Assembly: GCF_014651695.1 (NCBI RefSeq)
Contig: NZ_BMXJ01000001.1
Coordinates: forward strand, 722,944-786,943
From: Nocardiopsis terrae
Lineage (GTDB): Bacteria; Actinomycetota; Actinomycetes; Streptosporangiales; Streptosporangiaceae
Reading direction: 5' to 3'
Length of the DNA stretch: 64,000 nt
The translations under genes and the position numbers were made by a program. Below, one piece after another: positions 44,240-64,000 of this stretch. The notes below the pieces were generated by a model that was not told the DNA's origin, ran no database searches, and saw only the letters and a list, made by a program, of their open reading frames with translations. How positions within the stretch are numbered: the stretch's first letter is position 1; each line of letters starts with the position of its first letter.

Positions 44240-44788
44240 AGAGCGCCTTCACGGAGCGAGGTCGGTTTCTCCTCGCCGAAACCCCGAGTCCTGAATACCG
44301 GGCAGCGCATGGGGATATGAGTACAGGCGGAGAGCCGACATGCGCAGAGCACATGGATGAGATGTACCCCAGCCCATTCTGTCCCATTGTGGCCAAGGGG
44401 TCTTCGAGCGGGTTGCACGTCCTTGTCGAGGGCCATCAGATCTGCTACTCAGACGCGGGTTCAGGCTGTCGCCCCGCATGATCCGGCGCCTTCGGAGGCG
44501 AATTCATGCTTTCTTCATGTAAACCTTCGATCGAATAAGGCGTCCTTTTTCTTTTTGATCTTCCCCTATATCACCACCAGACAATAGCGATATATACGAC
44601 TCATGGATCATGGGTTAATCTCTGTCGTATATTTCCATACCTATCCCCCCGATTCAGCGGTCACCCGTGGACGAGACGCATGCCGAACCCCCGACAGTCC
44701 GTCCCCCGTTCCCTCGGGAGCAGTAGCACGCACCGTGGTCCCACCGTGTGCCGGACGCGTGCGTTCCACCGAGCATTTGGAGTCACCA
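44240..44788. other. AT-rich leader with a 9-bp inverted repeat before the teichoic-acid-type gene
   Basis: Bases ~44510-44640 are strikingly AT-rich for this genome and should hold the promoter of the glycosyltransferase. ATATACGAC (44592-44600) and GTCGTATAT (44624-44632) are perfect complements 23 nt apart. Upstream of 44510 the DNA holds only short non-coding frames and may be more of the decayed locus. Confidence 0.5.
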
Positions 44789-47700
44789 GTGGTAGCGCTC
44801 AGCGCCATCGTTCCGATCTACAACGTCGAGAGGTACCTCGACGAGTGCCTGCGGTCCCTCCGGGTGCAGACCTGGAAGGATCTGGAGGTAGTCATGGTGG
44901 ACGACGGCTCTCCGGACGGGAGCACGTCGATCGCGGCCCGGTACGCCGAGGAGGACCCCCGGTTCAGACTCGTCCAACAGGAGAACGGCGGTTTGGGCGC
45001 GGCCCGCAACACGGGCCTGCGACACGCCGGGGGCGAGTTCATCACCTTCGTGGACAGTGACGACGTGATCCCGCCCTACGCCTTCGGCCACCACGTGGAG
45101 AGCCTGAGGCGCAGCGGGTCGGACTTCTCGTCGGGCAACGTGCACCGCCTCAGCGAGCTGGGCACGCGCCAGTCGCCCATGCACCGCAGGATCTTCCGTA
45201 CCGCGAGGACCCGCACCCACATCACGCGCGAGGACACGCTCCTGGTGGACCGGCTGGCCACCAACAAGGTCTGGCGGCGCTCCTTCTGGGACAGGCACGG
45301 CCTGACCTTCCCCGTGGGCGTCCTGTACGAGGACGAGTCCGTGGTCATCCCCCTGCACTTCCTCGCCGAGGCCGTAGACGTGCTCTCGGACCCCGTCTAC
45401 CTCTGGCGCGAGCGCCCCAGCGACGACAGGTCCATCACCCAGGACCGGTTACGCCCCCAAGCCCTGGAGGACCGCTTCACCGCTGTCACCGCGGTCAGCG
45501 ACTTCATCACGAAGAACCTCCCCCCGCTGCAGAAACGGCGCTGGGACGGAGCCGCCCTCGGCAATGACCTGCGTACCTTCCTGGAGGTGCTGGACCACGC
45601 TGACGAAGCGTTCACCGAGCGCCTCGTCAGGCTCGGCAACACCTACCTGGACACGGTGGACGAGAGGGTACTGCGCGACCTTCCCGCCATCGAGCGGCTG
45701 AAGTGGTACCTGATCCGGAAGGAGAGGACCGACCAGCTCCGGGAGGCCGTCGTCTTCAGCAAGAGCGCGGAGAGGAGGAAGGCCAAGGCCGTTCGGCACG
45801 GGCTCCGCTACTACGCGGACTATCCCTTCAAGGACGACCCGAAGCAGGGCGTCCCCCGCTCGGTCTACCGGGTACGGTCCGAGCTCAGGCTCCGCCAGAA
45901 GACGGAGGGGCTCGCCTGGGCCGACGGCAAGCTGGTCGTCAGCGGGCGGATCTGCCTGAAGTACCTGCGCCCCAACAAGCGTCTCCAGCAGCAGGTGAGG
46001 GCCTGGGCGGTCAACCCCGGAACCGGCGGGAGGGTGCGTCTGAACACGACCACGCACCAGGCCAACGAGTTCCGCCTCTCCCCGAAGACGACCACGTCCC
46101 GCACGGACTGGGGCGGCTACCGGATCGTCATCGACCCCTCAGCACTGGTGGACGACGGTGACTGGCACGTGGAACTGTCCGTGGTCAACCGGGGCTTCCG
46201 CCGGGTGGAGCGGCTGACGAACCCGGCCGCGGCCGAGGTGCGGATGGTCGGCTCCGAGCAGGTCCGGCCAGGGGTCTGGGCGCGCCCGCACTGGGTGGAC
46301 GACCACGAACTGCGCCTGACCGTCGAGTGTCCGGTGCTCGTCCTCGACGGGTCCCGGGCCGAGGGGGCCTCCCTGGTCCTCGACGGGCGGATGACAGGGC
46401 CCCCGGTGAAGGACCTGGACGCCTGCGTCCGGCGTCTCCCGGGCGGGAGCGAGGTCCCGGTGCGGACGGAGACGGACGGCTCGACCGCGCGCCTGCTCGT
46501 AGACCTCGCCGACCTCACGGACGGGCACCAGGACAGGACCGCGATCCCCGGAAGCGACCCCCACGAGGAGTGGTCGGTCCACGTCAGGGACGGCGCGGGG
46601 CGTTCCGGATGGGTTCCGTTCGCCGACGGCGGCCCCGAGGACCGCCACCCCCACGCCGGCCTGAACGTGCGGGTGGTCCCGGACTTCGCCGGACGGACCA
46701 GACTCAGGGTTGAGCGGCCCCAACCCCTGCTCACCGACGTCGCCTGGGACGGTTACACCCTCAACCTCCGCGGCGACTTCCCCGAGGCCCACTCGAACGG
46801 CCTCTCCCTGGTGGTCAAGGCCATCGGCCGGATGGAGGAGCACCTCTTCCCGCTGGAGACCAGCGGTGAACGGTTCACGGCCTCCGTCCAGCCCACCGCG
46901 GTCCCCAACTTCGGCACGAGTGTCCCCCTCGGCCCCGGCGACTACCGCTTCCTGCTGCGGATCGACCGCGGGGACGACGAGTGGGACGACCGCAGGATCG
47001 GCTTCTCCCGGGAGCTGCGCACGGCCGCGTTCCCCGCTCCGCAGGAGGGCGGCTTCGACCTGGAGGTCAGACCGGACAGCAGGGCATGGCCGGTCCTGCG
47101 GTTCGGCTCGGTGCTGCGCCCGGAGGAACAGGGGTCCTACGCGCAGCAGATCCTGCGCGAGCAGACCTACCCGAGGCTGCGCGAGAAGCCGGTGCGGTCC
47201 GGCATCGTCTTCGACAGTTACACCGGCAAACAGTTCTCCGACAGCCCGCGGGACATGTACGAGGAACTCAGCCGCCGCGGCGTGGACGCGCCGATGTCGT
47301 GGCTGGCGCGCAACCGCCAACTGACCCTGCCCCCGGGGCTGACGGAGATCAGGCACACGAGCCGGGAGTACTTCGAGGCGCTGGCGCGCTCGGAGTACAT
47401 CGTCTCCAACACCCACCTGCCCATGTGGTTCGAGAAGCAGCCGGGCCAGAAGGTGGTACAGACCTGGCACGGATCGATGCTCAAACGCATCGGCCTGGAC
47501 ATCGAGCACGTCCGGTTCGCCAGCCGCGACTACCACGACCGGCTCAGGCGTGAGACCGGCCAGTGGGACTACCTCGTCTCCCCGAGCCCCTGGGCAACCC
47601 CGATCCTGCGCAGGGCCTTCGGGTTCGAGAACGAGATCCTGGAGACCGGCTACCCGCGCAACGACATCTTCCACCGTCCCGGGCGCGAGGCGTTGGCGGA

Positions 47701-48280
47701 GAGGGTCCGCGAGCGCCTGGGGCTGCCGGAGGGTAAGAAGGTCATCCTGTACGCGCCGACCTGGCGGGACGACAAGTTCTACTCGGCCGGCAAGTACAAG
47801 CTGGACCTGCACCTGGACCTCAAGCGGCTGTACGACGCCCTGGGCGACGACCACGTACTGCTGTTCCGCAGGCATCCCAACATCGTCGACCGGGTGCCGA
47901 ACGCGGGCACGGACTTCGTCTTCGACGTGTCCGCCTACCCCGAGATCCAGGAGCTGTTCCTGGTCACGGACGTCCTCGTCACCGACTACTCGTCGCTGAT
48001 GTTCGACTTCGCCAACACCGGCCGTCCCATGCTCTTCTTCACCTACGACCTGGAGGAGTACCGGGACAGTCTGCGCGGGTTCTACTTCGACTTCGAGCGG
48101 ACCGCCCCCGGTCCGCTGCTGCGCACCTCCGACGAGGTCATCGACGCGGTCCGGGACGTCGACCGCGTGCGGAAGGCGCACGAGGACCGGTACGGGGCCT
48201 TCGTGGACCAGTTCTGCCCCCTGGACGACGGCAAGGCGGCCTCCCGGGTCGTGGAACAGGTCTTCGGCCCGCTCCTGTGA
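44789..48280 (+). CDS. Fused GT2 glycosyltransferase and CDP-glycerol glycerophosphotransferase
   Basis: GTG 44789 has GGAG 6 nt upstream. The 1163-residue protein begins with a GT2 domain (~1-230): LSAIVPIYNVERYLDECLRSL, VVMVDDGSPDGS, GLGAARNTGLRHAGGEFITFVDSDDV (DxD). A ~560-residue middle region of beta-rich, mostly sugar-binding-like repeats follows, beginning with a coiled helix region near 330-420. The C-terminal ~370 residues form a TagF-like domain with VRSGIVFDSYTGKQF, TWHGSMLKRIG, SPSPWATPILRRAFG, YAPTWRDDKFYSAG, HPNIVDRV and TDYSSLMFDFANTGRPMLFF. Such fusions build poly(glycerol phosphate)-type or glycosylated teichoic acids. galE follows in the same direction. Confidence 0.9.
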   Translation: MVALSAIVPIYNVERYLDECLRSLRVQTWKDLEVVMVDDGSPDGSTSIAARYAEEDPRFRLVQQENGGLGAARNTGLRHAGGEFITFVDSDDVIPPYAFGHHVESLRRSGSDFSSGNVHRLSELGTRQSPMHRRIFRTARTRTHITREDTLLVDRLATNKVWRRSFWDRHGLTFPVGVLYEDESVVIPLHFLAEAVDVLSDPVYLWRERPSDDRSITQDRLRPQALEDRFTAVTAVSDFITKNLPPLQKRRWDGAALGNDLRTFLEVLDHADEAFTERLVRLGNTYLDTVDERVLRDLPAIERLKWYLIRKERTDQLREAVVFSKSAERRKAKAVRHGLRYYADYPFKDDPKQGVPRSVYRVRSELRLRQKTEGLAWADGKLVVSGRICLKYLRPNKRLQQQVRAWAVNPGTGGRVRLNTTTHQANEFRLSPKTTTSRTDWGGYRIVIDPSALVDDGDWHVELSVVNRGFRRVERLTNPAAAEVRMVGSEQVRPGVWARPHWVDDHELRLTVECPVLVLDGSRAEGASLVLDGRMTGPPVKDLDACVRRLPGGSEVPVRTETDGSTARLLVDLADLTDGHQDRTAIPGSDPHEEWSVHVRDGAGRSGWVPFADGGPEDRHPHAGLNVRVVPDFAGRTRLRVERPQPLLTDVAWDGYTLNLRGDFPEAHSNGLSLVVKAIGRMEEHLFPLETSGERFTASVQPTAVPNFGTSVPLGPGDYRFLLRIDRGDDEWDDRRIGFSRELRTAAFPAPQEGGFDLEVRPDSRAWPVLRFGSVLRPEEQGSYAQQILREQTYPRLREKPVRSGIVFDSYTGKQFSDSPRDMYEELSRRGVDAPMSWLARNRQLTLPPGLTEIRHTSREYFEALARSEYIVSNTHLPMWFEKQPGQKVVQTWHGSMLKRIGLDIEHVRFASRDYHDRLRRETGQWDYLVSPSPWATPILRRAFGFENEILETGYPRNDIFHRPGREALAERVRERLGLPEGKKVILYAPTWRDDKFYSAGKYKLDLHLDLKRLYDALGDDHVLLFRRHPNIVDRVPNAGTDFVFDVSAYPEIQELFLVTDVLVTDYSSLMFDFANTGRPMLFFTYDLEEYRDSLRGFYFDFERTAPGPLLRTSDEVIDAVRDVDRVRKAHEDRYGAFVDQFCPLDDGKAASRVVEQVFGPLL

Positions 48281-53633: not shown

Positions 53634-54173
53634 ATGGTCATGAATTTAACCGCGGACTTACCGGGGGGGCAGTTGCTGGATTCTAAGAATGTCGCGCAAG
53701 AGGTTGTCGAGGGGTTCTTCGAGGCTGGATTCAGGAGTTTTACGGGGGTTCCGTGCTCGCTTCTCAAGGGCCTGTTCCGAATCCTGGAGGACGCGTCAAC
53801 GCCCGCCCGCTATGTCCCAGCACCACGTGAGGACTCCGCACTCGGCGTGGCTTCCGGGCTGGCCGTGGCCGGGGAACGTCCGGTCGTCATGATGCAGAAC
53901 TCCGGTCTCGGCTACTCCCTCAACGTCCTCACCTCCTTCAACCTCATATACGACGTTCACATGCCGCTTATCGTCAGCTGGCGGGGCCATGGTGGGAACG
54001 ATGCCGTCGAGCACGATGTGATCGGACGAGAACTGACCAATCTCCTGGATGTCTTCGGCCTGGCCTGGACCGTTCTCGACCCGGAGAATCCCCGGGCATC
54101 GGTCGAGGCGTGTCTGAAGGACCACGACGATGGACGCAGGACCTCGGTGCTCATCGTCCGTGAGGGGGTCTGA
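53634..54173 (+). CDS. Phosphonopyruvate (or sulfopyruvate) decarboxylase, alpha (pyrimidine-binding) subunit
   Basis: This 179-residue ThDP-enzyme half includes EVVEGFFEAGFRSFTGVPCSLLKGLFRIL, then APREDSALGVASGLAVAGERPVVMMQNSGLGYSLNVLTSFNLIYDVHMPLIVSWRGHGGNDAVEHDVIGRE. These are the N-terminal-domain blocks of phosphonopyruvate decarboxylase, including the catalytic Glu region (PREDSAL) and the MQNSGLGYS and SWRGHGG motifs. The beta half is encoded right after, as in ComD/ComE or split Ppd enzymes. With the nearby PEP mutase, phosphonopyruvate is the natural substrate, giving phosphonoacetaldehyde and driving the unfavourable mutase step. Sulfopyruvate decarboxylase is the alternative by family. 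Starts at 53634 and 53640 are both possible. Confidence 0.88.
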   Translation: MVMNLTADLPGGQLLDSKNVAQEVVEGFFEAGFRSFTGVPCSLLKGLFRILEDASTPARYVPAPREDSALGVASGLAVAGERPVVMMQNSGLGYSLNVLTSFNLIYDVHMPLIVSWRGHGGNDAVEHDVIGRELTNLLDVFGLAWTVLDPENPRASVEACLKDHDDGRRTSVLIVREGV

Positions 54174-54175
54174 GC

Positions 54176-54754
54176 GTGCTCGACATACGCGAAGCCATCC
54201 ACGTCCTCCTGTCGGGCGCGCCATCCGCCGTCTGCGTGACGACGTGCGGGTTCATCACCCGTGATGCGTATGGGGCTGCCGACCGGGACGGCAACTTCTA
54301 CCTGGTCGGCTCCATGGGTATGGCCGCTCCGGTGGGCCTGGGTATCGCACTGGCCCGACCCGAGCGTCAGGTGATCGTCCTCGACGGGGACGGCTCCTTC
54401 GCCATGAACCCGGGCTGCCTACCGATGATCGCGGGGCAGCGGCCAAACCTCGTACACGTCGTTCTCGACAACGCCGCGCACGAGAGCACCGGCGGCCAGC
54501 GCACCTCACCCCTCGGTGACCCCGTCGCCCTCGCCCTCGCCTCCGGCTACACCGCCGCGCACGCGGTCTCGACGCTGGAGGAACTCCGCGGCATCGACCT
54601 GACCGGTTCCCCCGCCCTTCTGCACGTGCGCTGTGAGCCGCGCTCGAGGAGACCCGGGCGACGGGTCGAACTCACGCCGCAGCAGCTCGTGGCCCGGTTC
54701 CGCCGTGGCCTCGCCGCCCGCCCTCTCCAGGGAGAGGAAGCCGTTCGATGCTGA
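54176..54754 (+). CDS. Phosphonopyruvate (or sulfopyruvate) decarboxylase, beta (ThDP-binding) subunit
   Basis: This 192-residue C-terminal half contains GSMGMAAPVGLGIALARPERQVIVLDGDGSFAMNPGCLPMIAGQRPNLVHVVLDNAAHESTGGQRT, the ThDP/Mg motif GDG-x(~27)-N that binds the diphosphate. The start is GTG 54176, 3 nt past the alpha stop, with GAGGGGG 7 nt upstream. The C-terminus is short and basic (RRGLAARPLQGEE). It forms a heteromer with the alpha subunit and would act in the cytosol. Confidence 0.88.
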   Translation: MLDIREAIHVLLSGAPSAVCVTTCGFITRDAYGAADRDGNFYLVGSMGMAAPVGLGIALARPERQVIVLDGDGSFAMNPGCLPMIAGQRPNLVHVVLDNAAHESTGGQRTSPLGDPVALALASGYTAAHAVSTLEELRGIDLTGSPALLHVRCEPRSRRPGRRVELTPQQLVARFRRGLAARPLQGEEAVRC

Positions 54755-55758
54755 AACCCACTCTGCTGGACTGCACACTCCGCGATGGCGGCAACCAGAA
54801 CGACTGGCGCTTCACCGCGGCTGACGTCCAGACCATTGTGAGCACACTCGACTCCGCAGAAGTCGACGTCATCGAGGTCGGATACCGGGGAGGTTCGGGA
54901 AGTCGTCACAGCCCCACAGCGGGAGCCTCCGCGCACTGTTCCCCCGAGTACCTGGCGGCATTGCCGGTCACCAAGCACGCGGAGCTGGCCGTCATGGTCG
55001 TACCGTCCGTGTGCCCTGTCCTGGCCATGGAGGACCTGCCTGACAGCCCCGTCAGCATGGTGCGCCTCGCCGCCTACCCGTGGAACATGGGTCAGATCCC
55101 CGCTTACATGAACGCCGTACGCTCCATGGGACTGCGGGTCAGCGTGAATCTGATGGCGGTCAGCTACGTCGACGTGCCGCGGCTACGTGAGATCGCCAGG
55201 GAACTGGCCTCCACGCCGCCCGACGTCATGTACGTCGCGGACTCCTTCGGCGCCCTGAACCCCGACAGCCTCCGGGAGCGGGTGGACGTGCTGCTGCACG
55301 AGCTCGACATTCCGGTCGGCGTGCACACACACAACAACCTCGGCCTCGCGGCCGCCAACGCGCTCGCGGCGCTCGACACAGGAGCCACCTGGCTCGACGC
55401 CTCACTGTGCGCCATGGCTCGGGGTGCGGGCAACCTCGCGACGGAGCAGGCCGCCGCCATCCTCTCCTCCTGGCCCAGGTACGCGACCGACGTCCTGCCG
55501 GAGCAGGTGTGCGAGGCCTCGGAATACGTGGCCGAGCGGGTACTGCCGAGGCCGATGGCCGTCCGTCGCGTGGAGATCGCCGCCGGTCTCAACGATCACC
55601 ACTTCTACTACCAGGACCGCGTCGATCGGATCAGCGCCGCCCATGGCCTGGACCCGTGGAGGGTGGGCCGCGCCCTCGGAGCCATCCGGCCGCGCAAGGT
55701 GACGGACGAGGTTGTGGAGCGCGTGTGCCAGAACATGAGCGAAGAGAGTCCCGCATGA
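54748..55758 (+). CDS. DRE-TIM aldolase/lyase (4-hydroxy-2-oxovalerate aldolase/HMGL-like)
   Basis: This 336-residue TIM-barrel enzyme has LLDCTLRDGGNQNDWRF (residues 7-23, metal-binding Asp and DRE-type Arg/Asp-Glu), IEVGYRGG, ADSFGALNP and VGVHTHNNLGLAAANALAALDTGATWLDASLCAMARGAGNLATE, with the HTHNN metal histidines and a GAGN region. These are the marks of the 4-hydroxy-2-oxovalerate aldolase branch more than of alpha-isopropylmalate synthase, since it is shorter and lacks the C-terminal LeuA domain. RhiG of rhizocticin is a homologous kind of aldolase. It overlaps the previous gene by 7 nt. Inference: it adds a C3 unit (pyruvate or oxaloacetate) to phosphonoacetaldehyde. Confidence 0.85.
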   Translation: MLKPTLLDCTLRDGGNQNDWRFTAADVQTIVSTLDSAEVDVIEVGYRGGSGSRHSPTAGASAHCSPEYLAALPVTKHAELAVMVVPSVCPVLAMEDLPDSPVSMVRLAAYPWNMGQIPAYMNAVRSMGLRVSVNLMAVSYVDVPRLREIARELASTPPDVMYVADSFGALNPDSLRERVDVLLHELDIPVGVHTHNNLGLAAANALAALDTGATWLDASLCAMARGAGNLATEQAAAILSSWPRYATDVLPEQVCEASEYVAERVLPRPMAVRRVEIAAGLNDHHFYYQDRVDRISAAHGLDPWRVGRALGAIRPRKVTDEVVERVCQNMSEESPA

Positions 55759-56663
55759 GCCAGAAGAACACAGCCTCCCCCGCGCGGCGTCTGCTCGACG
55801 CGCTCCGGGGACCCCAGCTGACCCGGGCGATGGGCGCCCACAACCCTTTGAGCGCCCGTTTGGCGGAGGAAGCCGGATTCGACGTGATCTGGTCGAGCGG
55901 CCTGGAGATCTCCGCTGCCGCGGGCCTGCCCGACGCCAACATCCTCAGCATGCCGGACTGCCTGCGGGCGGCCACGGACATGGCCGCGGCCCTGTCGGTT
56001 CCCGTACTCGCGGACTGTGACTCGGGGTTCGGCAACGTCAACAACGTCCTGCACATGATCCGTTCGTACGAGGCCCGGGGCGTCGCCGGTGTCTGCATCG
56101 AGGACAAGCAGTTCCCCAAACTCAACAGCTTCGTCGAAGGCGATCAGGAACTGGCGCCCATCGACGACTTCGCCGGAAAGATCCGCGCGGCCACCGAATG
56201 CCGTGAGGAACTCGTCGTCATCGCCAGACTGGAGGCCCTGATCTCCGGCCAAGGCATGGACGAGGCACTGAGGCGTGCCGAGATCTATGAAAGGGCGGGC
56301 GCGGACGCATTGCTGATCCACTCCAAGCTCTCCGAGCCGGACGAGGTGTTCGCCTTCCGGGAGGCCTACGACGGCGATCTGCCAGTGGTCGTCGTGCCGA
56401 CCACCTACCACAGGGTGACGGTGGCGGAACTTCGTCAGCGCGGCTTCGCCATGGCGATCTACGCCAACCACTCCTTGCGCAGCTCCATCCACGCGATGCG
56501 CGGGACTCTGCGTCGTATCCTCCAGGACGGGACGACCCTCCACGTGGAGCCCGACATAGCTCCGCTCAAGGAAGTCTTCGACCTCCAGGGCGTGCACCAG
56601 ATGCTGGACAGGCAGAGCCACTACGAGGCCGCTGGCCGTGAACTCGCGGAGGTGGAGCGGTGA
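55755..56663 (+). CDS. pepM: Phosphoenolpyruvate phosphomutase
   Basis: This 302-residue enzyme makes phosphonopyruvate from PEP, the entry to most C-P natural products. The diagnostic EDKxxxxxNS motif is present at residues 116-125 (EDKQFPKLNS). Other family blocks: IWSSGLEISAAAGLPDANI with the Asp/Asn loop, VLADCDSGFGN (Mg-ligand Asp), VIARLEALISGQGMDEALRRAEIYERAGADALLIHSK and VVPTTYH. The motif separates it from isocitrate lyase- and oxaloacetate-hydrolase-like relatives. ATGA overlaps with both neighbours tie it to the decarboxylase/aldolase genes and to the HPr-kinase-like gene. Confidence 0.95.
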   Translation: MSQKNTASPARRLLDALRGPQLTRAMGAHNPLSARLAEEAGFDVIWSSGLEISAAAGLPDANILSMPDCLRAATDMAAALSVPVLADCDSGFGNVNNVLHMIRSYEARGVAGVCIEDKQFPKLNSFVEGDQELAPIDDFAGKIRAATECREELVVIARLEALISGQGMDEALRRAEIYERAGADALLIHSKLSEPDEVFAFREAYDGDLPVVVVPTTYHRVTVAELRQRGFAMAIYANHSLRSSIHAMRGTLRRILQDGTTLHVEPDIAPLKEVFDLQGVHQMLDRQSHYEAAGRELAEVER

Positions 56664-57775
56664 CGGTACCGACACTGGCCGGAACGCTGCGCCTCTCGTT
56701 TCTCGACACCGCGCTGGACATACGCTCCGAACCAGGCGCTCATGTGGAGGAGGCACTGCGCTTCCTGGAGACGCACCTCCTGGTGGAACCCTTGTCCGAG
56801 GAGACCGACGCCCCGCCTCCGTTGGCCACCCTGTACGTGGCAGCCAAGCCATCCGCGCGGCACTCGCCGTCGGATGAGGCCGCGTGGGAGCCGATCCACG
56901 TGCGCAAGAGCGCAAGCGACTTCTTCACCATCCCCGCCCGGCGGACCAGCGAGGCAGGCCGGGAGTACGTCCACTGCACCAGGACCGGAACCCTCTTCGC
57001 CTTCGACCGCCAGGCCGGGAGGATCGACGTGGCAATGGGTCCTTCAGGGGCGCTGGACCTCATCGAACTACTTCGTGACCTGTTCCTGAAGGACCAGGAG
57101 AACCGGGGCGCCGCCGTACTGCACGCCACCTGCGCCCATCGGGACGGGGGCGCCGTCCTCGTCACCGGGGCCAAGGGCGCGGGCAAGAGCACGATCCTGC
57201 TGGAGCTGGTGGAGCGGTTCGGCCATCAGGTGATGAGCGGGGACAAGACCGTGCTGCGCCTCGAGGCGGACGGGACGGTACTGGCCGCGGGCTGGCCCGA
57301 CTACCCGCACCTGGGCTACGGCACCATCGCCAAGTACCCGGGGCTGCGTGAGATCGCCGGTATCGGCGATAACTACACGCCTCCTGCTGATCACGCCTTC
57401 TCTCCCACCGGCAAGTTCGCGGTCGATCCCCGGCGTTTCCGGGAGCGCTTCCCCAACGCACCTCGGGGCCTCCGAGTCCCGATCGCCGCCGTCGTGCATC
57501 CCGCGATCGGCCCTGCCGGGTCCACTGTGTTGGAGCCCTACCAGGACGGCGACGACGCTCACGCGGCCGTACTCGCGGACAACGTCGAATCCGCCTTCGA
57601 CGGCGCCAACTCGGGGTGGCACCGGTTCATCGACGACGGACGCGCCGCACACGCGCGAACACGCGAGCGAATCGTGCGGGAGCTGGCGGGGCACCCTGCC
57701 TGGACCCTGCGGGGTCCGGGGGACCTCACCCCCGAGGGGACACCCGCACTGATCGTGAGGGGAGCGGGCGGATGA
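56660..57775 (+). CDS. HPr-kinase/PEP-carboxykinase-like P-loop protein in a phosphonate operon
   Basis: This 371-residue protein has a less conserved N-terminal ~150 residues (LSFLDTALDIRSEPGAHVEEALRFLETHLLV ... RKSASDFFTIPARR). A C-terminal domain follows with P-loop VTGAKGAGKSTILLELVERFG (~168-188), QVMSGDKTVLRLEADGTVLA with a second-strand Asp/Lys, YPHLGYGTIAKYPGLREIAG, FSPTGKFAVDP and VVHPAIG. The plan is that of HPr-Ser kinase-like proteins, also seen as tailoring kinases in lasso-peptide clusters, not true HprK. GTGA overlaps pepM, and ATGA leads into the YjbQ-like gene. The target could be a serine-bearing carrier, peptide or small molecule. This is a novelty in a phosphonate setting as far as I know. 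Confidence 0.78.
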   Translation: MTVPTLAGTLRLSFLDTALDIRSEPGAHVEEALRFLETHLLVEPLSEETDAPPPLATLYVAAKPSARHSPSDEAAWEPIHVRKSASDFFTIPARRTSEAGREYVHCTRTGTLFAFDRQAGRIDVAMGPSGALDLIELLRDLFLKDQENRGAAVLHATCAHRDGGAVLVTGAKGAGKSTILLELVERFGHQVMSGDKTVLRLEADGTVLAAGWPDYPHLGYGTIAKYPGLREIAGIGDNYTPPADHAFSPTGKFAVDPRRFRERFPNAPRGLRVPIAAVVHPAIGPAGSTVLEPYQDGDDAHAAVLADNVESAFDGANSGWHRFIDDGRAAHARTRERIVRELAGHPAWTLRGPGDLTPEGTPALIVRGAGG

Positions 57776-58200
57776 TCGAGCTGGAGGTCCCCAGCACGGG
57801 ACTGAACTCACACTACGATCTCACCGACACGATCGCTGAGCGGCTACGGGAGCGGGGAACAGGAGACGGGCTCGTGGGCGTGTTCGCACGCGGGAGCACC
57901 GTGGGCCTGACCGTCATGCGCTACGAACCCGGAACCGCCCAGGACCTGCTCCACGCACTCGAACGCCTCGCCCCGCATGACGAGGTCCGTTACCTGCACG
58001 AATTGACCACCGGTGACGCCAACGGATTCTCCCACCTGAAGTCGTCACTCCTGGGAACGAGCGTACTGGTCCCCTTCCGTGAGAACGCGCTGGACATGTC
58101 ACCCTCACACCGCGTGGTGCTCTTCGACTTCGACCTCAAGGCGGCCCCCCGCAAGGTGCTGATCGACGCTCCTCACGCGAGGAAGGGAGAATCCCGATGA
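57772..58200 (+). CDS. YjbQ/UPF0047-family protein
   Basis: This 142-residue protein starts at ATG 57772, overlapping the HPrK-like stop by 4 nt, and its own stop overlaps the aminotransferase ATG by 4 nt. The core matches YjbQ: YDLTDTIAERLRERGTGDGLVGVFARGSTVGLTV, LLHALERLAPHDE, SHLKSSLLGTSVLVPF and VVLFDFD. The family trimer has a metal-binding His/Asp site and weak thiamine-phosphate-synthase activity in E. coli; its main role is unknown. Here the usual G-N-S-D-A-H block reads TTGDANGFSHLKSS, so the metal site may be altered. Confidence 0.82.
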   Translation: MIELEVPSTGLNSHYDLTDTIAERLRERGTGDGLVGVFARGSTVGLTVMRYEPGTAQDLLHALERLAPHDEVRYLHELTTGDANGFSHLKSSLLGTSVLVPFRENALDMSPSHRVVLFDFDLKAAPRKVLIDAPHARKGESR

Positions 58201-59339
58201 GACAACGCCTGGCGACCCCCGGTCCCACCGAAGTCCCGCAGAGGTTGTTGCTGGCCGGTGCGCGAGAGATCGTCCATCATCGCTCGACACAGATGGAGGA
58301 ACTCCTCCACGAGGTCAATAGCGGACTGCCTCCCCTGTTCGGTACCACCCGTCCCGTGTACACCATTGCTTCATCCGGAACCGGCGCCATGGAGGCGGCC
58401 GTCGCTAACTGTTTCTCACCCGGCGACGAGGTCCTGGTGGTCTCCAACGGGTACTTCGGTGAACGGTTCCGGGACATCGCCCTTGCCTATGGCCTCGTCC
58501 CGCACGTCGTCGAAAGCGAGTGGGGCACGAGCGCGGACCCGGAACGGGTCGCCGCCTCCTACGCCCGACACCCCGAGGTCAAGGGTGTCCTGGTCGTCCA
58601 CAGCGAGACCTCCACAGGAGTGCTCAACGACGTCGAGGCCATCGGGCGCCTGTTCCGTGACACGGACGTGGTCGTGGTCGTGGACGCGATCAGTGGGTTG
58701 CTGGTGCACACGATGGAGGCCGACGCGTGGGGACTCGACGTCGTGCTAGCGGCTTCGCACAAGGGCTTCATGCTTCCCCCCGGTCTGGCGTTCGTCTCGG
58801 TGTCGGACCGCGCCTGGGCGGCGGTGGAACGCGCGTCAGGGCCGCACTATTACTGGTCCTTCCAGAGGCTCCGGCGCTTCTATCCGATGTCGTCGTCGTC
58901 CCCGGCGGTCTCCCTCGTCCAAGGCCTCAGCGAGTCCTTGAGGCTCCTCACGGAGGAGGGAATGCCCGCCTTCCGCGAGCGCCACGCCCTGCTCGGTCAG
59001 GCGACCGAACACGCCCTGACCGCGCTGGGGTTCGTGCCCTTCGTGCGGGAGCCGCACCGGCGCGGCAATGTCGTCACCTCCGCCCTCGCTCCTGAGGGGA
59101 TCGACACCTCCCGGTTGTTGAAGACCCTCTCCAACCGCCACGGCGTGACCATGACCGGTGGCCAGGCCCACCTGAAGGGCAAGCTCATCAGAGTCGGCCA
59201 CGTGGGGGCAACCGACCCGTTGGACCTGTGCGCGATCATCGCCGCCGTCGAGATGTCCCTGCTCGAGCTCGGCCACCGGTTCTCTCCCGGTTCCGGAGTG
59301 GGCGAGGTCATCCGTACCCACCAGGAGGCGAACGCCTGA
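58197..59339 (+). CDS. Class V PLP aminotransferase (PhnW/AGT-like)
   Basis: This 380-residue enzyme starts like its family (TPGPTEVPQRLLLAGAREIVHHRSTQMEELLHEV), then has the PLP phosphate/ring loop ASSGTGAMEAAVANCF, GYFGERFRDIALAYG, VHSETSTGV, VVDAISGLLVHTM (PLP-N1 Asp) and the Schiff-base Lys in ASHKGFMLPPGLAF. The same plan covers alanine-glyoxylate, serine-pyruvate and 2-aminoethylphosphonate aminotransferases. In this operon a phosphono-aldehyde or phosphono-2-oxoacid is the likely acceptor, giving 2-AEP or a longer aminophosphonate. ATGA overlaps on both sides mark it as part of the same transcript. Confidence 0.88.
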   Translation: MRQRLATPGPTEVPQRLLLAGAREIVHHRSTQMEELLHEVNSGLPPLFGTTRPVYTIASSGTGAMEAAVANCFSPGDEVLVVSNGYFGERFRDIALAYGLVPHVVESEWGTSADPERVAASYARHPEVKGVLVVHSETSTGVLNDVEAIGRLFRDTDVVVVVDAISGLLVHTMEADAWGLDVVLAASHKGFMLPPGLAFVSVSDRAWAAVERASGPHYYWSFQRLRRFYPMSSSSPAVSLVQGLSESLRLLTEEGMPAFRERHALLGQATEHALTALGFVPFVREPHRRGNVVTSALAPEGIDTSRLLKTLSNRHGVTMTGGQAHLKGKLIRVGHVGATDPLDLCAIIAAVEMSLLELGHRFSPGSGVGEVIRTHQEANA

Positions 59340-59644
59340 TGCTTGTCCTGTTCCAGCGTGAGACCTGCCCCGACTGCCGACCGGTCCGGGAGCTGCTCAC
59401 CCGCCTCCAGGTCTCCTACGTCAATGTCAACGTGCCCAAGCCTCGCGATGAGCGGCACGAGCTCATCCGTGTGACCGAGAGCAAGTACATTCCCGCCCTG
59501 GTCGACGGGGCTACGGTACTGCCCGGCAGACTCAGGGAGAACGCCGAGATCATCGCCTACCTTCAGGAACGGTTCGCCGAGCCGGGCGGGCCCCCGCCCG
59601 AGGACCCGATGGCGCCCGGGAAGCATTCGGAGGGTACGGAGTGA
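59339..59644 (+). CDS. Glutaredoxin-like protein (CPDC)
   Basis: This 101-residue protein has the thioredoxin fold. The redox motif CPDC is at residues 10-13 (RETCPDCRPVRELL), with YIPALVDG giving the usual cis-Pro loop near residue 55 and GRLRENAEIIAYLQERF the final helix. The tail is Pro-rich and short. AGGAGG is 11 nt before the ATG, which overlaps the aminotransferase stop (TGATG). Its next neighbour overlaps in GTGA. It could reduce a tailoring enzyme or act as a glutathione-S-transferase-like adaptor. The specific job is unknown. Confidence 0.82.
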   Translation: MLVLFQRETCPDCRPVRELLTRLQVSYVNVNVPKPRDERHELIRVTESKYIPALVDGATVLPGRLRENAEIIAYLQERFAEPGGPPPEDPMAPGKHSEGTE

Positions 59645-60873
59645 CTCCCGGTCACCGCCCCGTGGTCGCGGTGGTCAGCGGGACCGCTTCCCTTGTCCGC
59701 GCGGCCCACGACCTCGGCGTGGACGTCGTTCTCGTTCACGCCGGGGCCGCGCCCGCACCACAGGTCCTCGAGAGGGTCGAGAGCGCCGTGGCCGTCGCCG
59801 AACTCAGTGACCACGAGGCGCTCCACGCCGCCCTGGAGCCGTTCCACCGCGTGAGGCGGTTCGCACGTGTGCTGTCCCTGACCGAGAACGGCCTCCTTCC
59901 CGCGGCCGTCGTCGGTGACCGGCTCGGAGTCCCCGGGAATCCGAGCCGTGCGGTGAGGCTGCTCAAGGACAAACGGAGAATGCGCGACCTGCTCAACGCT
60001 CGAGGGCTCAGTCCGGTTCGTGCCCGACCGGTATCCTCCTCCGCCGACCTGGCCGCCTTCCTCGGCGAGGTCGACGGACCCGTGGTCCTCAAACCGGCCA
60101 CCGGTGCCGGAAGCCACGCGGTACTTCGTGTGGACCTGCCGGGGGAGGCCGAGGACGCCTGGCGGCGGTTCACCGACGAGGGCGGTGGCGACCCTGTCGC
60201 CGAGGAGTACCTGGCCGGGCCCGAGATCAGTGTCGAGTGCTTCTCCCACGAGGGCCGGCACGTGGCCGTGACGACCACGGACAAGCACCTTCTGGGAAAC
60301 CTGGTCGAGGCCGGGCACACGGTTCCCAGTTCCTTGGCGGCGGAGGAGGTGGACCGTGCCGTGAACCTGGTGCGGGATTTCCTGGACCTGGTCGGGCTGC
60401 GTGAGGGGCCTTCCCACACCGAACTCCGTATCACTGTCGCCGGCCCCAGAATCATCGAGTCCCACAACCGGATCGGCGGCGACAAGATCCGTGAGCTCGT
60501 CCGCCGGGCCCACGGCGTGGACCTCGTCCGGTTGACCGTGGGCGCCGCGCTCGGCCTTCTTCCCCCGCTCACCGAGCCTCCCCCCGCACACGGTGGTGCG
60601 GCCGTCCGCTTCCTCACCCCGGCACCGGGCCTGGTGCGCTCGGTCGAGCTGCCCCGGTTCGAGGACAGCCGGACGACCGTGTCCGTGGACGTCGGTCCCG
60701 GAGACCGTGTGAAGTCCGTCCGCCGCTCAGAGGACCGTTCCGGGTACGTGCTGGCGGAGGGTGCCGACGCGGCCGAGGCGGCCCGGGTCTGCGAGCGGGC
60801 CGCGGCCCTGGTTCGCATAGGGACGGTTCCGGACAGGGCTGAGGAGGCCGAGCCGTGCGCTATGCCATCGTGA
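59641..60873 (+). CDS. ATP-grasp ligase 1 of the phosphonate operon
   Basis: This 410-residue ligase joins a carboxylate to an amine through an acyl phosphate. It has N-terminal pre-ATP domain VVAVVSGTASLVRAAHDLGVDVVLVHAG, central-domain loop RLLKDKRRMRDLLNARGLS, nucleotide-binding VVLKPATGAGSHAVLRV, VAEEYLAGPEISVECFSHEGR (adenine-side and metal part), then HTELRITVAGPRIIESHNRIGGDKI with the Glu/Asn metal ligands. It matches the BacD/L-amino-acid-ligase style. A GTGA overlap ties it to the glutaredoxin gene. Confidence 0.9.
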   Translation: MTPGHRPVVAVVSGTASLVRAAHDLGVDVVLVHAGAAPAPQVLERVESAVAVAELSDHEALHAALEPFHRVRRFARVLSLTENGLLPAAVVGDRLGVPGNPSRAVRLLKDKRRMRDLLNARGLSPVRARPVSSSADLAAFLGEVDGPVVLKPATGAGSHAVLRVDLPGEAEDAWRRFTDEGGGDPVAEEYLAGPEISVECFSHEGRHVAVTTTDKHLLGNLVEAGHTVPSSLAAEEVDRAVNLVRDFLDLVGLREGPSHTELRITVAGPRIIESHNRIGGDKIRELVRRAHGVDLVRLTVGAALGLLPPLTEPPPAHGGAAVRFLTPAPGLVRSVELPRFEDSRTTVSVDVGPGDRVKSVRRSEDRSGYVLAEGADAAEAARVCERAAALVRIGTVPDRAEEAEPCAMPS

Positions 60874-61502
60874 CCGACATCCACGGTGACGTCACGGCGC
60901 TGCGCGCCGTGGTCCACCAGGTCGAACGTCAGGGGGTCGACGGGCTCCTGTGCCTGGGTGACGTGTTCGAGTGCCTGGTGAGCAAACGGGACGTCACGTC
61001 CCACGTGTTCGGCGGTGTCTCCGAGGTCTTCGACCCGGACCCGGAGGTGGCGGCCCTGCTGGAGGGAGCCGCCCACGTGCGAGGCAACCAGGAGGAGCGG
61101 ATCGCCTCGCTCATCCCCGGGGGCGCGTTGCCGGACTGGGCCCGGCCACTCATACACGCACCGCTCGAACGCCGTACTTCCTCGGCCTCGTTCTGCCACG
61201 GCCACACGCTGTCCTGGCACCAACCGGAGCCGGGCCTGTGGTCTCCGGTGGCCGAGTCCGCTCTGCGAACGCTGCTCGTCCACGGGCACCACCACCGAAG
61301 CGTGGTGCACCGCTTGCACGCCGACCCCGACGGTGTCCGTTCCGAACGCGTCCCCTTCCGTTTCGGGGTGGAAACGCACCTATCTCCCGATGTTCGGCAC
61401 ATCGTCAACGTCGGTTCCGTCCGCGGACCCGCTCCCGCCTGGGCGGTGATGGACGAGGAGGCATTGTCCCTCACCCACCACCGTGTCGGAGGAACCCCAT
61501 GA
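60855..61502 (+). CDS. Calcineurin-like metallophosphoesterase
   Basis: This 215-residue enzyme begins at GTG 60855 (GGAGG 7 nt upstream, overlapping the ligase by 19 nt). Metal motifs: DIHGD (8-12), GDVFE (~39), GNQEE (~77), CHGH and HGHHH. A two-metal site like those in PPP-type phosphatases is complete. It sits between two ligase genes and overlaps both. Possible roles: removing a protecting phosphate left by the HPrK-like kinase, or hydrolysing a nucleotide by-product. Both are inference. Confidence 0.88.
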   Translation: MRYAIVTDIHGDVTALRAVVHQVERQGVDGLLCLGDVFECLVSKRDVTSHVFGGVSEVFDPDPEVAALLEGAAHVRGNQEERIASLIPGGALPDWARPLIHAPLERRTSSASFCHGHTLSWHQPEPGLWSPVAESALRTLLVHGHHHRSVVHRLHADPDGVRSERVPFRFGVETHLSPDVRHIVNVGSVRGPAPAWAVMDEEALSLTHHRVGGTP

Positions 61503-62656
61503 CCCGCCACGTACTCCTGCTCAACTCCGACAAACCCGAGGTCCTGCGTGCCCTGACGCGCCGCTCCGACGTGCGGGTCCGGGTCCTGACCCGGGAACGT
61601 TACGTCTCCTTCCACGAGGGGCTCGAAACGGCCGTCGTCGAGAACTTCGAGGATCTGACCCAGGTCGGGACCGCCGCGTACGAGCTGGCGGCCTCCGGTC
61701 CGGTCGACCACGTCGTCGCTGCCACGGAGAAGAGCATCGTCGCGGCCTCCCTGATTCGCTCCCTGCTCGGTGTGCCCGGGCTGTCGTTCGACCAGGCGCT
61801 GTGGACGTCACACAAACGGGCGATGAAGGACCGGCTGCGAACGGCCGGGCTACCCACAGCTGACTTCAGCCAGGTCGCAACCGTGGCGGACATCCCGTCC
61901 GCGGCCGAGCGCATCGGTTGGCCCGTGGTGGTCAAACCCGTCTTCGGCTCCGGTTCGCGTTCCACCCACCGGTTGTCCTCTTCTCGGAACTTCGCCGTGA
62001 AGCTGCGGTCCGGTGCTCTCGACGATCTGGCCGCACGTGGCGTGCCCGTCCTGGTCGAGGAACAGCTCCGGGTGCTTGACGAGTACCACTGCGATGGGCT
62101 CGTCCACGGGGGAGAGATCGTCTCCGCCGCGGTGTCCCGGTACTTCGACCCGCCCTTGGATGCGCCCGGAAACCTGCAGGGAAGCCACCTGGTCGCTTCT
62201 GGGAGCACTGCCTCCCAACGCATCCTGGAGCTGCACCGGAAGGTGGTACGTGCCCTGCGCCTACGCGACGGCATCACCCATCTGGAGGTGTTCGCAACGC
62301 CGGACGGGCACGTGATCGGTGAGGTGACCACCCGACCCGCGGGTCTCGGAGTCCCCCGCATGTGGGAGCACGCCTTCGGACTCAACCTTTGGGAGGGCTT
62401 CCTCGGGGCGGTACTCGGGGAGGGAGGGGGCATCTTCAATCGGCCCCACCCGGGGCGGCTCCTCGCCTGGACCCACCTCCCCGACCGGTTCGGGCTGGCC
62501 GAAGAAGTCACGGAAACGCCAGGCGTGTTCGAGGTGCTCTCACCCGCGGAGAACGGGTCTCCGAACATTGAGGTGCATTTCACCGCATCGGACGCGAGTA
62601 TCGCCGATGAGGTCAACACCGCGCTCCACTCCCTCGCCGACGCGAAGGCGCCGTAG
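61499..62656 (+). CDS. ATP-grasp ligase 2 of the phosphonate operon
   Basis: This is a 385-residue member of the ATP-grasp superfamily. Blocks visible: HVLLLNSDKPEVLRALTRRSDVRV (N-terminal Rossmann-like), ALWTSHKRAMKDRLRTAGLPTADFSQV, WPVVVKPVFGSGSRSTHRL (ATP loop), VLVEEQLRVLDEYHCDGLVHGGEIVSA (metal-side strand), THLEVFATPDGHVIGEVTTRPAG (Glu and Asn/Thr metal ligands). The sequence differs clearly from ligases 1 and 3, so it is not a recent duplicate and probably takes another amino acid. An ATGA overlap joins it to the phosphoesterase. Confidence 0.88.
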   Translation: MTRHVLLLNSDKPEVLRALTRRSDVRVRVLTRERYVSFHEGLETAVVENFEDLTQVGTAAYELAASGPVDHVVAATEKSIVAASLIRSLLGVPGLSFDQALWTSHKRAMKDRLRTAGLPTADFSQVATVADIPSAAERIGWPVVVKPVFGSGSRSTHRLSSSRNFAVKLRSGALDDLAARGVPVLVEEQLRVLDEYHCDGLVHGGEIVSAAVSRYFDPPLDAPGNLQGSHLVASGSTASQRILELHRKVVRALRLRDGITHLEVFATPDGHVIGEVTTRPAGLGVPRMWEHAFGLNLWEGFLGAVLGEGGGIFNRPHPGRLLAWTHLPDRFGLAEEVTETPGVFEVLSPAENGSPNIEVHFTASDASIADEVNTALHSLADAKAP

Positions 62657-62715
62657 GCGTCGCGATCCTTTCGTTCCCCTCCTCCGTATTCCCGCCAGCT
62701 CTCCCGAAGGTTGAC

Positions 62716-64000
62716 ATGTCCCTGAAGACATCTCCCCACCTCTGCCCCGATTCCGTGACCCACGTGCTCGTCGGCTACAGCAAGAACGTGCTCGACGACC
62801 TGGACGCCTTTCTGCCCGAGGAATCCGTGCTGGTCCTTGAGGAACCAGAGGTCATCACTGCCCGCAGGGTGTCGGCGAAGATATCCAGACATCCCAGCGC
62901 CGCACTGCTTCTGCCCGCTCCCTGCCAGGACGAGAGCTTTCCTGAGCGGTTCGTGGAAAGTGTCCTCCGCCCCGGGAACGTACGCGCCGTCATCCCCTCC
63001 GTGGAGTACGGGGTCGTGGCCACCGCGGCGCTCGCCGACGCCTGGCGGCTTCCCGGTGCCTCGCTCTCAGCGGCCAGGAACCTACGGGACAAGATCGCGT
63101 TGCGCACCGCGGCGGACCGGGCCGGTATCCCCCAGCCGAGGTGGACCGAGGTGTGCGGACCGGAGGAGGTACGGGGTTTCGCCGACTCCCTGGGGGTTCC
63201 CTGCGTCCTCAAACCGGCGAACCGCCAGGCGAGTCTGGGGGTTCGCTTCCTCGAGGTCGGAGAGGACACGCGGGAGGCGTGGGAGCACACCACGACGGCC
63301 AACGAGGCCTCGATGCGAGCGGACTACGCCAATATTCCGCGGTTCATGGTGGAGGAGCGAGTCGACGGACCGGAGGTCAGCGTCGAGGTACTCGTCGACG
63401 AGGGCACGGTCGGGTTCACCAACGTGACGGCCAAGGCCGTACAGGACTTCCGGTACCCGGTGGAACTGGGGCACACGGTTCCTGCTCTTGTCCCTCGGCA
63501 TGTGATCGCCTCCTTGACCCGGCGAATGGAACAACTCGTCGCGGCGACGGGGTTCCGTTCCGGTGTACTGCACGCCGAGTGGATCCTTGCCGGAGGCGAC
63601 AGCCCCTACCTGGTCGAATGCGCGGGTAGGCCACCCGGTGACCGCATCACCACCCTCATCGACCTCGCCTACGGGGGGTCCCTCCTGCGGGACTTGGTCG
63701 CGCTCCTGGAGGGCGGGTCGGCGTCCGGACCCCGGCGAGCCTGCACGGGGGCGGCCATCCGCTTTCTCAGGGCTTCCCCGGGAGTGGTTGAGGAGATCGA
63801 AGGCGTCGACGGCCTGGGGGCGATGCCGGGCACACATGACTTCCGGGTCAGCGTCACCGAGGGCGACACCGTCCATGACACCACGAGCTCCTGGGACCGC
63901 GTCGGCTACGTGATCGCCACGGGCGGGGACCCGGCCGAGGCCAGCGCCAACGCCGAGCGCGCGGCCGACTCCGTCACCATCCGCGCCCGTCCTTCCGTGG
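62716..64000 (+). CDS. ATP-grasp ligase 3, partial (runs off the window)
   Basis: This frame is open from ATG 62716 (GAAGG 6 nt upstream) to the end, giving 428 codons without a stop. Blocks: HVLVGYSKNVLDDLDAFLPEESVLVLEE, SLSAARNLRDKIALRTAADRAGIPQPRWTEV, PCVLKPANRQASLGVRFLEVGE, FMVEERVDGPEVSVEVLVDEG, VLHAEWILAGGDSPYLVECAGRPPGDRITTLIDLAYGG. The adenine and metal sites are complete. It lies 59 nt after ligase 2, the first clear gap in the operon. A further ~20 to 40 residues probably follow beyond the window. Confidence 0.88.
   Translation, partial: MSLKTSPHLCPDSVTHVLVGYSKNVLDDLDAFLPEESVLVLEEPEVITARRVSAKISRHPSAALLLPAPCQDESFPERFVESVLRPGNVRAVIPSVEYGVVATAALADAWRLPGASLSAARNLRDKIALRTAADRAGIPQPRWTEVCGPEEVRGFADSLGVPCVLKPANRQASLGVRFLEVGEDTREAWEHTTTANEASMRADYANIPRFMVEERVDGPEVSVEVLVDEGTVGFTNVTAKAVQDFRYPVELGHTVPALVPRHVIASLTRRMEQLVAATGFRSGVLHAEWILAGGDSPYLVECAGRPPGDRITTLIDLAYGGSLLRDLVALLEGGSASGPRRACTGAAIRFLRASPGVVEEIEGVDGLGAMPGTHDFRVSVTEGDTVHDTTSSWDRVGYVIATGGDPAEASANAERAADSVTIRARPSV

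Follow-up and report, generated by a model that had tools for sequence, protein, structure and literature searches.

The 64,000-nucleotide stretch of the Nocardiopsis terrae genome analyzed here (the window; C1:722944-786943 of genome G000) ends in an operon of twelve co-directional plus-strand genes. The operon spans positions 53634 to 64023, i.e., 23 bases past the window end, and adjacent genes either share 1 to 19 bases or are separated by gaps of 2 to 59 bases (Table 1). Its genes encode a phosphoenolpyruvate (PEP) mutase (PepM), a predicted phosphonopyruvate decarboxylase in two halves (PpdAB), an aldolase, an HprK-like kinase, a YjbQ-like protein, an aminotransferase, a glutaredoxin, a phosphoesterase, and three ATP-grasp ligases. 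The operon is real and complete. We read it as an actinobacterial cluster of the rhizocticin/plumbemycin type, predicted with a probability of roughly 0.8 to make peptides ending in 2-amino-5-phosphono-3-pentenoic acid (APPA).

Gene content and genomic setting

Table 1. Genes of the operon and those directly downstream (window positions; ThDP, thiamine diphosphate; PEPCK, PEP carboxykinase; MFS, major facilitator superfamily; HTH, helix-turn-helix).
Gene or product	Position	Strand	Description and matches
ppdA	53634..54173	+	phosphonopyruvate decarboxylase, N-terminal ThDP half (predicted); PF02776 30.2 bits
ppdB	54176..54754	+	phosphonopyruvate decarboxylase, C-terminal ThDP half (predicted); PF02775 61.9 bits
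ald	54748..55758	+	DRE-TIM aldolase of 4-hydroxy-2-oxovalerate aldolase type, RhiG-like; PF00682 108.1 bits
pepM	55755..56663	+	PEP mutase, EDKQFPKLNS; PF13714 192.6 bits; best PDB match 5unc
HprK-like kinase	56660..57775	+	predicted small-molecule kinase of HprK/PEPCK fold
YjbQ-like protein	57772..58200	+	YjbQ/UPF0047 fold, swapped conserved residues (Gly43, Arg52, His115), predicted lyase; PF01894 82.3 bits (cut-off 27)
Aminotransferase	58197..59339	+	class V, serine/aspartate-glyoxylate type; BhcA 260.8, PhnW-AepZ 159.5 bits
Glutaredoxin	59339..59644	+	CPDC; PF00462 39.6 bits
ag1	59641..60873	+	ATP-grasp L-amino acid ligase with LAL_C2
Phosphoesterase	60855..61502	+	calcineurin-like metallophosphoesterase; PF12850 36.9 bits
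ag2	61499..62656	+	RizA-type ATP-grasp ligase; predicted reaction, coupling of an amino acid to APPA; 214 bits to 4WD3; aligned in A8
ag3	62716..64000 in window, ends 64023 (L004:9760-11067)	+	ATP-grasp L-amino acid ligase with LAL_C2
MFS exporter	64066-65394		beyond window, after ag3
Regulator	65593-66696		C-terminal HTH; weak family matches
GNAT	66687-67478 (L004:13731-14522)		start overlaps regulator end by 10 bases

Every gene named in the initial annotation was recovered on the plus strand in one tightly overlapping operon, although the HprK assignment is weak, and the continuation past the window that it had proposed was borne out by the end of the third ligase gene and by the exporter and regulator genes behind it. 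A congener (G036, taken as Nocardiopsis sp. CC223A) has collinear counterparts of 14 of the 15 genes, 53-82% identical, which makes the operon more than a chance assembly. The GNAT gene alone has no match in this congener's cluster stretch; its product could acetylate the peptide or be unrelated to it. Only two of 40 genomes of the genus, that of the window included, encode a PepM of at least 80% identity, and GC content at third codon positions is lower in the cluster (0.67-0.86) than in ten genes measured in CC223A (0.86-0.97), which together suggest that the cluster arrived by transfer. The corresponding value for an aminotransferase gene downstream of the cluster in the genome of the window is 0.93. 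Another Nocardiopsis contains a second kind of phosphonate cluster (L133; G027:C79:48000-64853), which comprises genes for a PepM bearing EDKTGLKQNS, a distant HprK-like kinase, an ABC transporter, a monooxygenase of flavin type, two subunits that look like aconitase, and a protein that looks like homocitrate synthase. Of these names, the PepM, aldolase-like, and HprK-like matches were computed and the others come from reading the sequence; the gene set presumably resembles that of pantaphos.

A core of nine genes in Actinomycetota and Bacillota

Nine genes (ppdA, ppdB, ald, pepM, hprK-like, yjbQ-like, aminotransferase, glutaredoxin, and phosphoesterase) keep this order in all 11 cluster loci, namely those of the window, Nocardiopsis CC223A, Streptomyces natalensis, Streptomyces lilacinus, Paenibacillus Marseille-Q4541, Virgibacillus proomii, Enterococcus quebecensis, L106, L109, L110, and G583. 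A pattern scan of genome contigs with the kinase alignment returned six of them (the two Streptomyces, CC223A, Paenibacillus, Virgibacillus, and Enterococcus), each with the core. Of 44 genomes from a single genus that we take to be Bacillus, three hold the cluster together with an aldolase 88-93% identical to the Bacillus spizizenii aldolase P0141 (L106, L109, and L110), and a fourth Bacilli genome, G583 (L107), also bears the cluster. Altogether, 17 loci other than the window were read, not counting L133; ten of them have the core, and the remainder (L053-L058 and L108) have a kinase gene and no cluster. The core can be interrupted: ag1 is inserted before the phosphoesterase gene in the four actinobacterial loci, and the Paenibacillus locus (L020) has insertions encoding a threonine synthase, an amidohydrolase, a Rieske protein, a nucleotidyltransferase, and a second phosphoesterase, of which the amidohydrolase, Rieske protein, and PF14907 nucleotidyltransferase genes lie between those of the kinase and the YjbQ-like protein (L020:9308-12174). 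G583 (L107:7828-12111) encodes a nucleotidyltransferase and extra proteins that by reading look like a small acyl carrier and a phytanoyl-CoA dioxygenase, and a modified APPA-type product is possible there.

The last ligase of L109 is about 93% identical to PDB entry 4WD3 over 413 of 413 residues. This entry is RizA, an arginyl-dipeptide ligase from Bacillus subtilis NBRC 3134, according to PMC6920838, and the strain is called a rhizocticin producer in the title of a reference in PMC9321006. Judged by alignment, ag2 is a RizA ortholog. The C-terminal-substrate pocket of RizA comprises Thr81, Lys83, Ser84, Ser156, and Ala158, with Asp376 excepted (PMC9321006), and would be the side where APPA sits. 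Four of these five residues are retained in ag2, Ala158 being replaced by Ser; over eight aligned rows, Thr81 and Lys83 are kept in all eight, Ser84 and Ser156 in six, and Ala158 in one. At Asp376, which probably serves the N-terminal arginine, ag2 and three aligned actinobacterial orthologs have a 10-residue gap. The ligase is thus predicted to use the same acceptor as RizA with a different first amino acid, probably not arginine. In G583, the ligase at the RizA-type place is closer to the other Bacillus-type ligase.

With L109, L106, and L110 as stand-ins for the rhizocticin cluster, the window has in common with it the nine-gene core and its order, the RizA-type ligase that follows the core, and an MFS exporter; in L109, a LysR-reading gene, thrC, a ligase gene, and the MFS gene precede ppdA, ppdB, ald, pepM, the hprK-like gene, and onward. 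The window differs from these loci by the absence of a threonine synthase gene and of the upstream LysR-reading gene, by three ligases instead of two, by a different regulator, and by a RizA ortholog that lacks the Asp376 stretch. The initial annotation had called the operon uncharacterised, with no described cluster that joins such genes to ones for HPrK-like and YjbQ-family proteins; this is not supported, since Bacillus-type clusters, one of them with a near-copy of RizA, share the core and its order. A known cluster with the same full gene set, the possibility raised there, is found for the nine-gene core, if the Bacillus-type loci are taken as rhizocticin clusters, and not for the three-ligase make-up. 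A phosphonopeptide-type antimicrobial, one of the two products proposed there, is well supported. Plumbemycin (Streptomyces plumbeus) and phosacetamycin are grouped with rhizocticin as APPA-releasing peptides in PMC13302981, and the clusters of S. natalensis and S. lilacinus (L017 and L018; two ligases) could be of the plumbemycin/phosacetamycin kind. Phosphonoalamide (pna) clusters, for which PMC11867202 describes phosphonopeptide formation by PepM and two ATP-grasp ligases, differ in that PnaA transaminates phosphonopyruvate directly, whereas the window has PpdAB and an aldolase instead and therefore does not fit a cluster of that kind. New features are the occurrence of the operon in Nocardiopsis together with its three ligases, a RizA ortholog from which the Asp376 stretch is missing, and an altered YjbQ branch beside the kinase.

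A predicted route to APPA and its alternatives

PepM, a strong family match, would convert PEP to phosphonopyruvate. Its match to the PEP mutase 5unc reaches 323.6 bits, its score with the NCBIfam model (314.3 bits) lies just under the cut-off of 319.55, and the EDKxxxxxNS motif is found in all 11 cluster PepMs. In a tree with a long-branch warning, these join another motif-bearing PepM of Nocardiopsis (support 100/99), apart from motif-less rows, and by score and tree alike the protein groups with PepM enzymes and not with the isocitrate-lyase-like enzymes considered in the initial annotation. PpdAB would then decarboxylate phosphonopyruvate to phosphonoacetaldehyde. The part matches of both halves to TIGR03297 (107.9 for PpdA and 130.9 for PpdB) barely exceed those to the sulfopyruvate decarboxylase alpha (103.3) and beta (126.5) subunits, and it is the context from which we infer a split phosphonopyruvate decarboxylase; the halves are 48% and 50% identical to their L109 counterparts, and PpdA is presumably RhiE-like. 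From phosphonoacetaldehyde and oxaloacetate or pyruvate, the aldolase would form 2-oxo-4-hydroxy-5-phosphonopentanoate, as suggested by its kinship to the Bacillus aldolase and by the reaction we take RhiG to catalyze. With the aldolase profile A5, P0141 scores 468 bits, followed by 369, 325-277 (P0174-P0179), and 231 and below, among the best 120 of 1754 matches listed, which include proteins named B. spizizenii and B. tequilensis; P0141 is probably RhiG, and a RhiG-type aldolase activity is predicted for the window protein. P0176 is a metagenomic protein with the aldolase part fused to a PALP (threonine-synthase-type) domain and may be an assembly chimera. Rathayibacter toxicus occurs among the listed relatives of both kinase and aldolase and Burkholderia cenocepacia among those of the aldolase, and the cluster type may reach further.

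For the late steps of APPA formation no account was found in the literature searched. The HprK/PEPCK-fold kinase may phosphorylate the 4-hydroxyl of the aldol product, after which the altered YjbQ protein would eliminate phosphate to give the 3-ene and the class V aminotransferase would convert the keto acid to APPA. The aminotransferase fits the last of these steps in that, by its profile scores, it is nearer the alpha-keto-acid (glyoxylate) type than PhnW: it scores higher with the BhcA model than with PhnW-AepZ (cut-off 360.8), both under the cut-offs, and it matches structure 6pk1 with 184 bits and 1m32 with 86 bits. Finally, ag2 would, from its RizA orthology, add the N-terminal amino acid, ag1 and ag3 may extend the peptide, and the MFS protein would export it. 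A competitor would take up the peptide and its peptidases release APPA, a Trojan-horse mode of uptake and release that is known for the rhizocticin family (PMC13302981 and PMC11867202).

That kinase and lyase together make the double bond is put forward as a tentative hypothesis, with the odds somewhat against it. The kinase falls short of the Pfam HPr_kinase_C model (19.2 bits, cut-off 33.3) and of NCBIfam HprK_rel_B (40.3, cut-off 200), and an HPr kinase proper was rejected on the former score, with the fold being common to the C-terminal half. It is 12-20% identical to aligned rows of the HprK/PEPCK fold, Foldseek gives it TM-scores of just 0.39-0.45 with PEPCK when normalized by query length, and no PEPCK match was listed in its Pfam scan. 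The YjbQ-like protein scores 54.5 bits with the NCBIfam model of secondary thiamine-phosphate synthase (YjbQ; cut-off 67.75). Nine of the 11 cluster-bearing genomes hold a separate YjbQ paralog, and two residues conserved in all 11 of these paralogs, His and Glu, which we take to be active-site residues, are Gly43 and Arg52 in all 11 cluster proteins (residues counted from 57766). Going by this exchange of His for Gly and of Glu for Arg, the cluster protein is a UPF0047 branch apart from canonical YjbQ. A slightly more doubtful proposal is a new two-enzyme dehydratase, in which the kinase phosphorylates the 4-hydroxyl and a rebuilt YjbQ-fold active site, with Arg52, His115, and Arg116 holding phosphonate and phosphate, eliminates the phosphate.

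Other readings assign these proteins differently. The same APPA pathway may use another enzyme for the double bond, while the HprK-like kinase masks an intermediate or its phosphonate group and the metallophosphoesterase strips the phosphate at export, as a self-protection pair; kinases that phosphorylate fosfomycin are known. Both proteins belong to the core of all 11 loci, and in four of these, including the window, no threonine-pathway gene that could confer resistance was seen. However, at five loci the pair occurs together with a threonine synthase, and the YjbQ-like protein is left without a role. We regard this division of labor as unlikely, if deserving of weight. Clearly less probable is a new head group, with only the early half of the pathway as in rhizocticin and a stop or branch at 2-amino-4-hydroxy-5-phosphonopentanoate. 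The gap at Asp376 in the four actinobacterial orthologs and the 21-25% identity of the ligases other than ag2 to the second Bacillus ligase would suit such a product, but all nine core genes, including the late ones, are common to the RizA-bearing cluster, and the acceptor pocket of ag2 is largely retained.

Two further readings are very improbable. PepM, a decarboxylase, and a class V aminotransferase can together yield 2-aminoethylphosphonate, and a cell-surface decoration with this compound, the alternative offered in the initial annotation, could be served by the product of a large gene about 5 kb upstream of the operon (44603-48280), which by reading only resembles a CDP-glycerol-type wall-polymer glycosyltransferase. 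This alternative is disfavored by the family scans, which gave no nucleotidyltransferase match in the operon, by an aminotransferase closer to glyoxylate transaminases than to PhnW, and by the additional presence of an aldolase, of three ligases, and of an exporter. The kinase gene and that of the YjbQ-like protein could equally be thought to supply thiamine phosphate for the ThDP decarboxylase, given the NCBIfam label of YjbQ, but the sub-threshold score, the His and Glu exchanges in all cluster proteins, and the separate paralogs speak against it to the same degree.

Threonine pathway, self-resistance, and implications

APPA released from rhizocticin and plumbemycin inhibits threonine synthase, as stated in PMC13302981. 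A threonine synthase gene lies within the cluster at five of the 11 loci (L020, L106, L107, L109, and L110), and at two others (S. natalensis L017 and S. lilacinus L018) genes for aspartokinase and homoserine dehydrogenase adjoin it. Seven of the 11 loci are thus linked to the threonine pathway, which, irrespective of the rhizocticin label, fits threonine synthase as the target of APPA. Both Streptomyces genomes have two homoserine dehydrogenases, compared with one in G000 and G036, and the linked gene of S. lilacinus appears as two pieces. Since threonine synthase is absent from six of the 11 loci, a role of this enzyme in making the double bond is unlikely.

Several points weigh against the assignment to APPA. 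No threonine-pathway gene was found in the window cluster and no threonine synthase in the clusters of L016, L017, L018, L021, and L022, and by reading L016, L021, and L022 showed no threonine-pathway gene at all. The genome of the window has two threonine synthase matches, as do 38 of the 39 other Nocardiopsis genomes searched; with neither an extra copy nor a cluster-borne gene, self-resistance is left unexplained. The kinase is not tied to APPA, because relatives of 46-59% identity (L053-L056; 37% for L108) occur without matches to the other cluster genes nearby. In two Nocardiopsis (L053:8617-10703 and L054:8071-10682), HprK-like kinases of 58-59% identity adjoin what by reading may be a nitronate monooxygenase. 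Identity to the Bacillus proteins is low, at only 43% between the aldolase and P0141 and 33% between ag2 and the L109 ligase, and the Asp376 position is occupied by Glu (L020), His, or Phe in the Bacilli rows other than L109. The reaction of RhiG and the rhi letters (RhiG aldolase, RhiH PepM) are presumed here, in agreement with the order of L109, and L106, L109, and L110 are called Bacillus on the strength of their 88-93% identity to a protein named B. spizizenii.

On balance, sequence comparison predicts that the cluster makes a phosphorus-containing peptide antibiotic related to rhizocticin, and not a wholly new one, which places known antifungal and antibacterial chemistry in Nocardiopsis. 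The three ligases and the altered RizA-type ligase suggest a peptide distinct from the rhizocticins, and the amino acid make-up of such Trojan-horse peptides decides which organisms they enter. Comparison of Actinomycetota and Bacillota would narrow APPA biosynthesis to the nine core genes and a ligase, apart from likely resistance genes. The cluster itself is ordinary, yet useful for the unsolved double-bond step, as it leaves a small set of possibilities for the late APPA steps, with the kinase and the YjbQ-like protein as named candidates and with specific residues to probe. If the dehydratase reading is true, the kinase/lyase pair would be analogous to those of lanthipeptides, and one branch within UPF0047, a widespread family, would gain a clear catalytic role.

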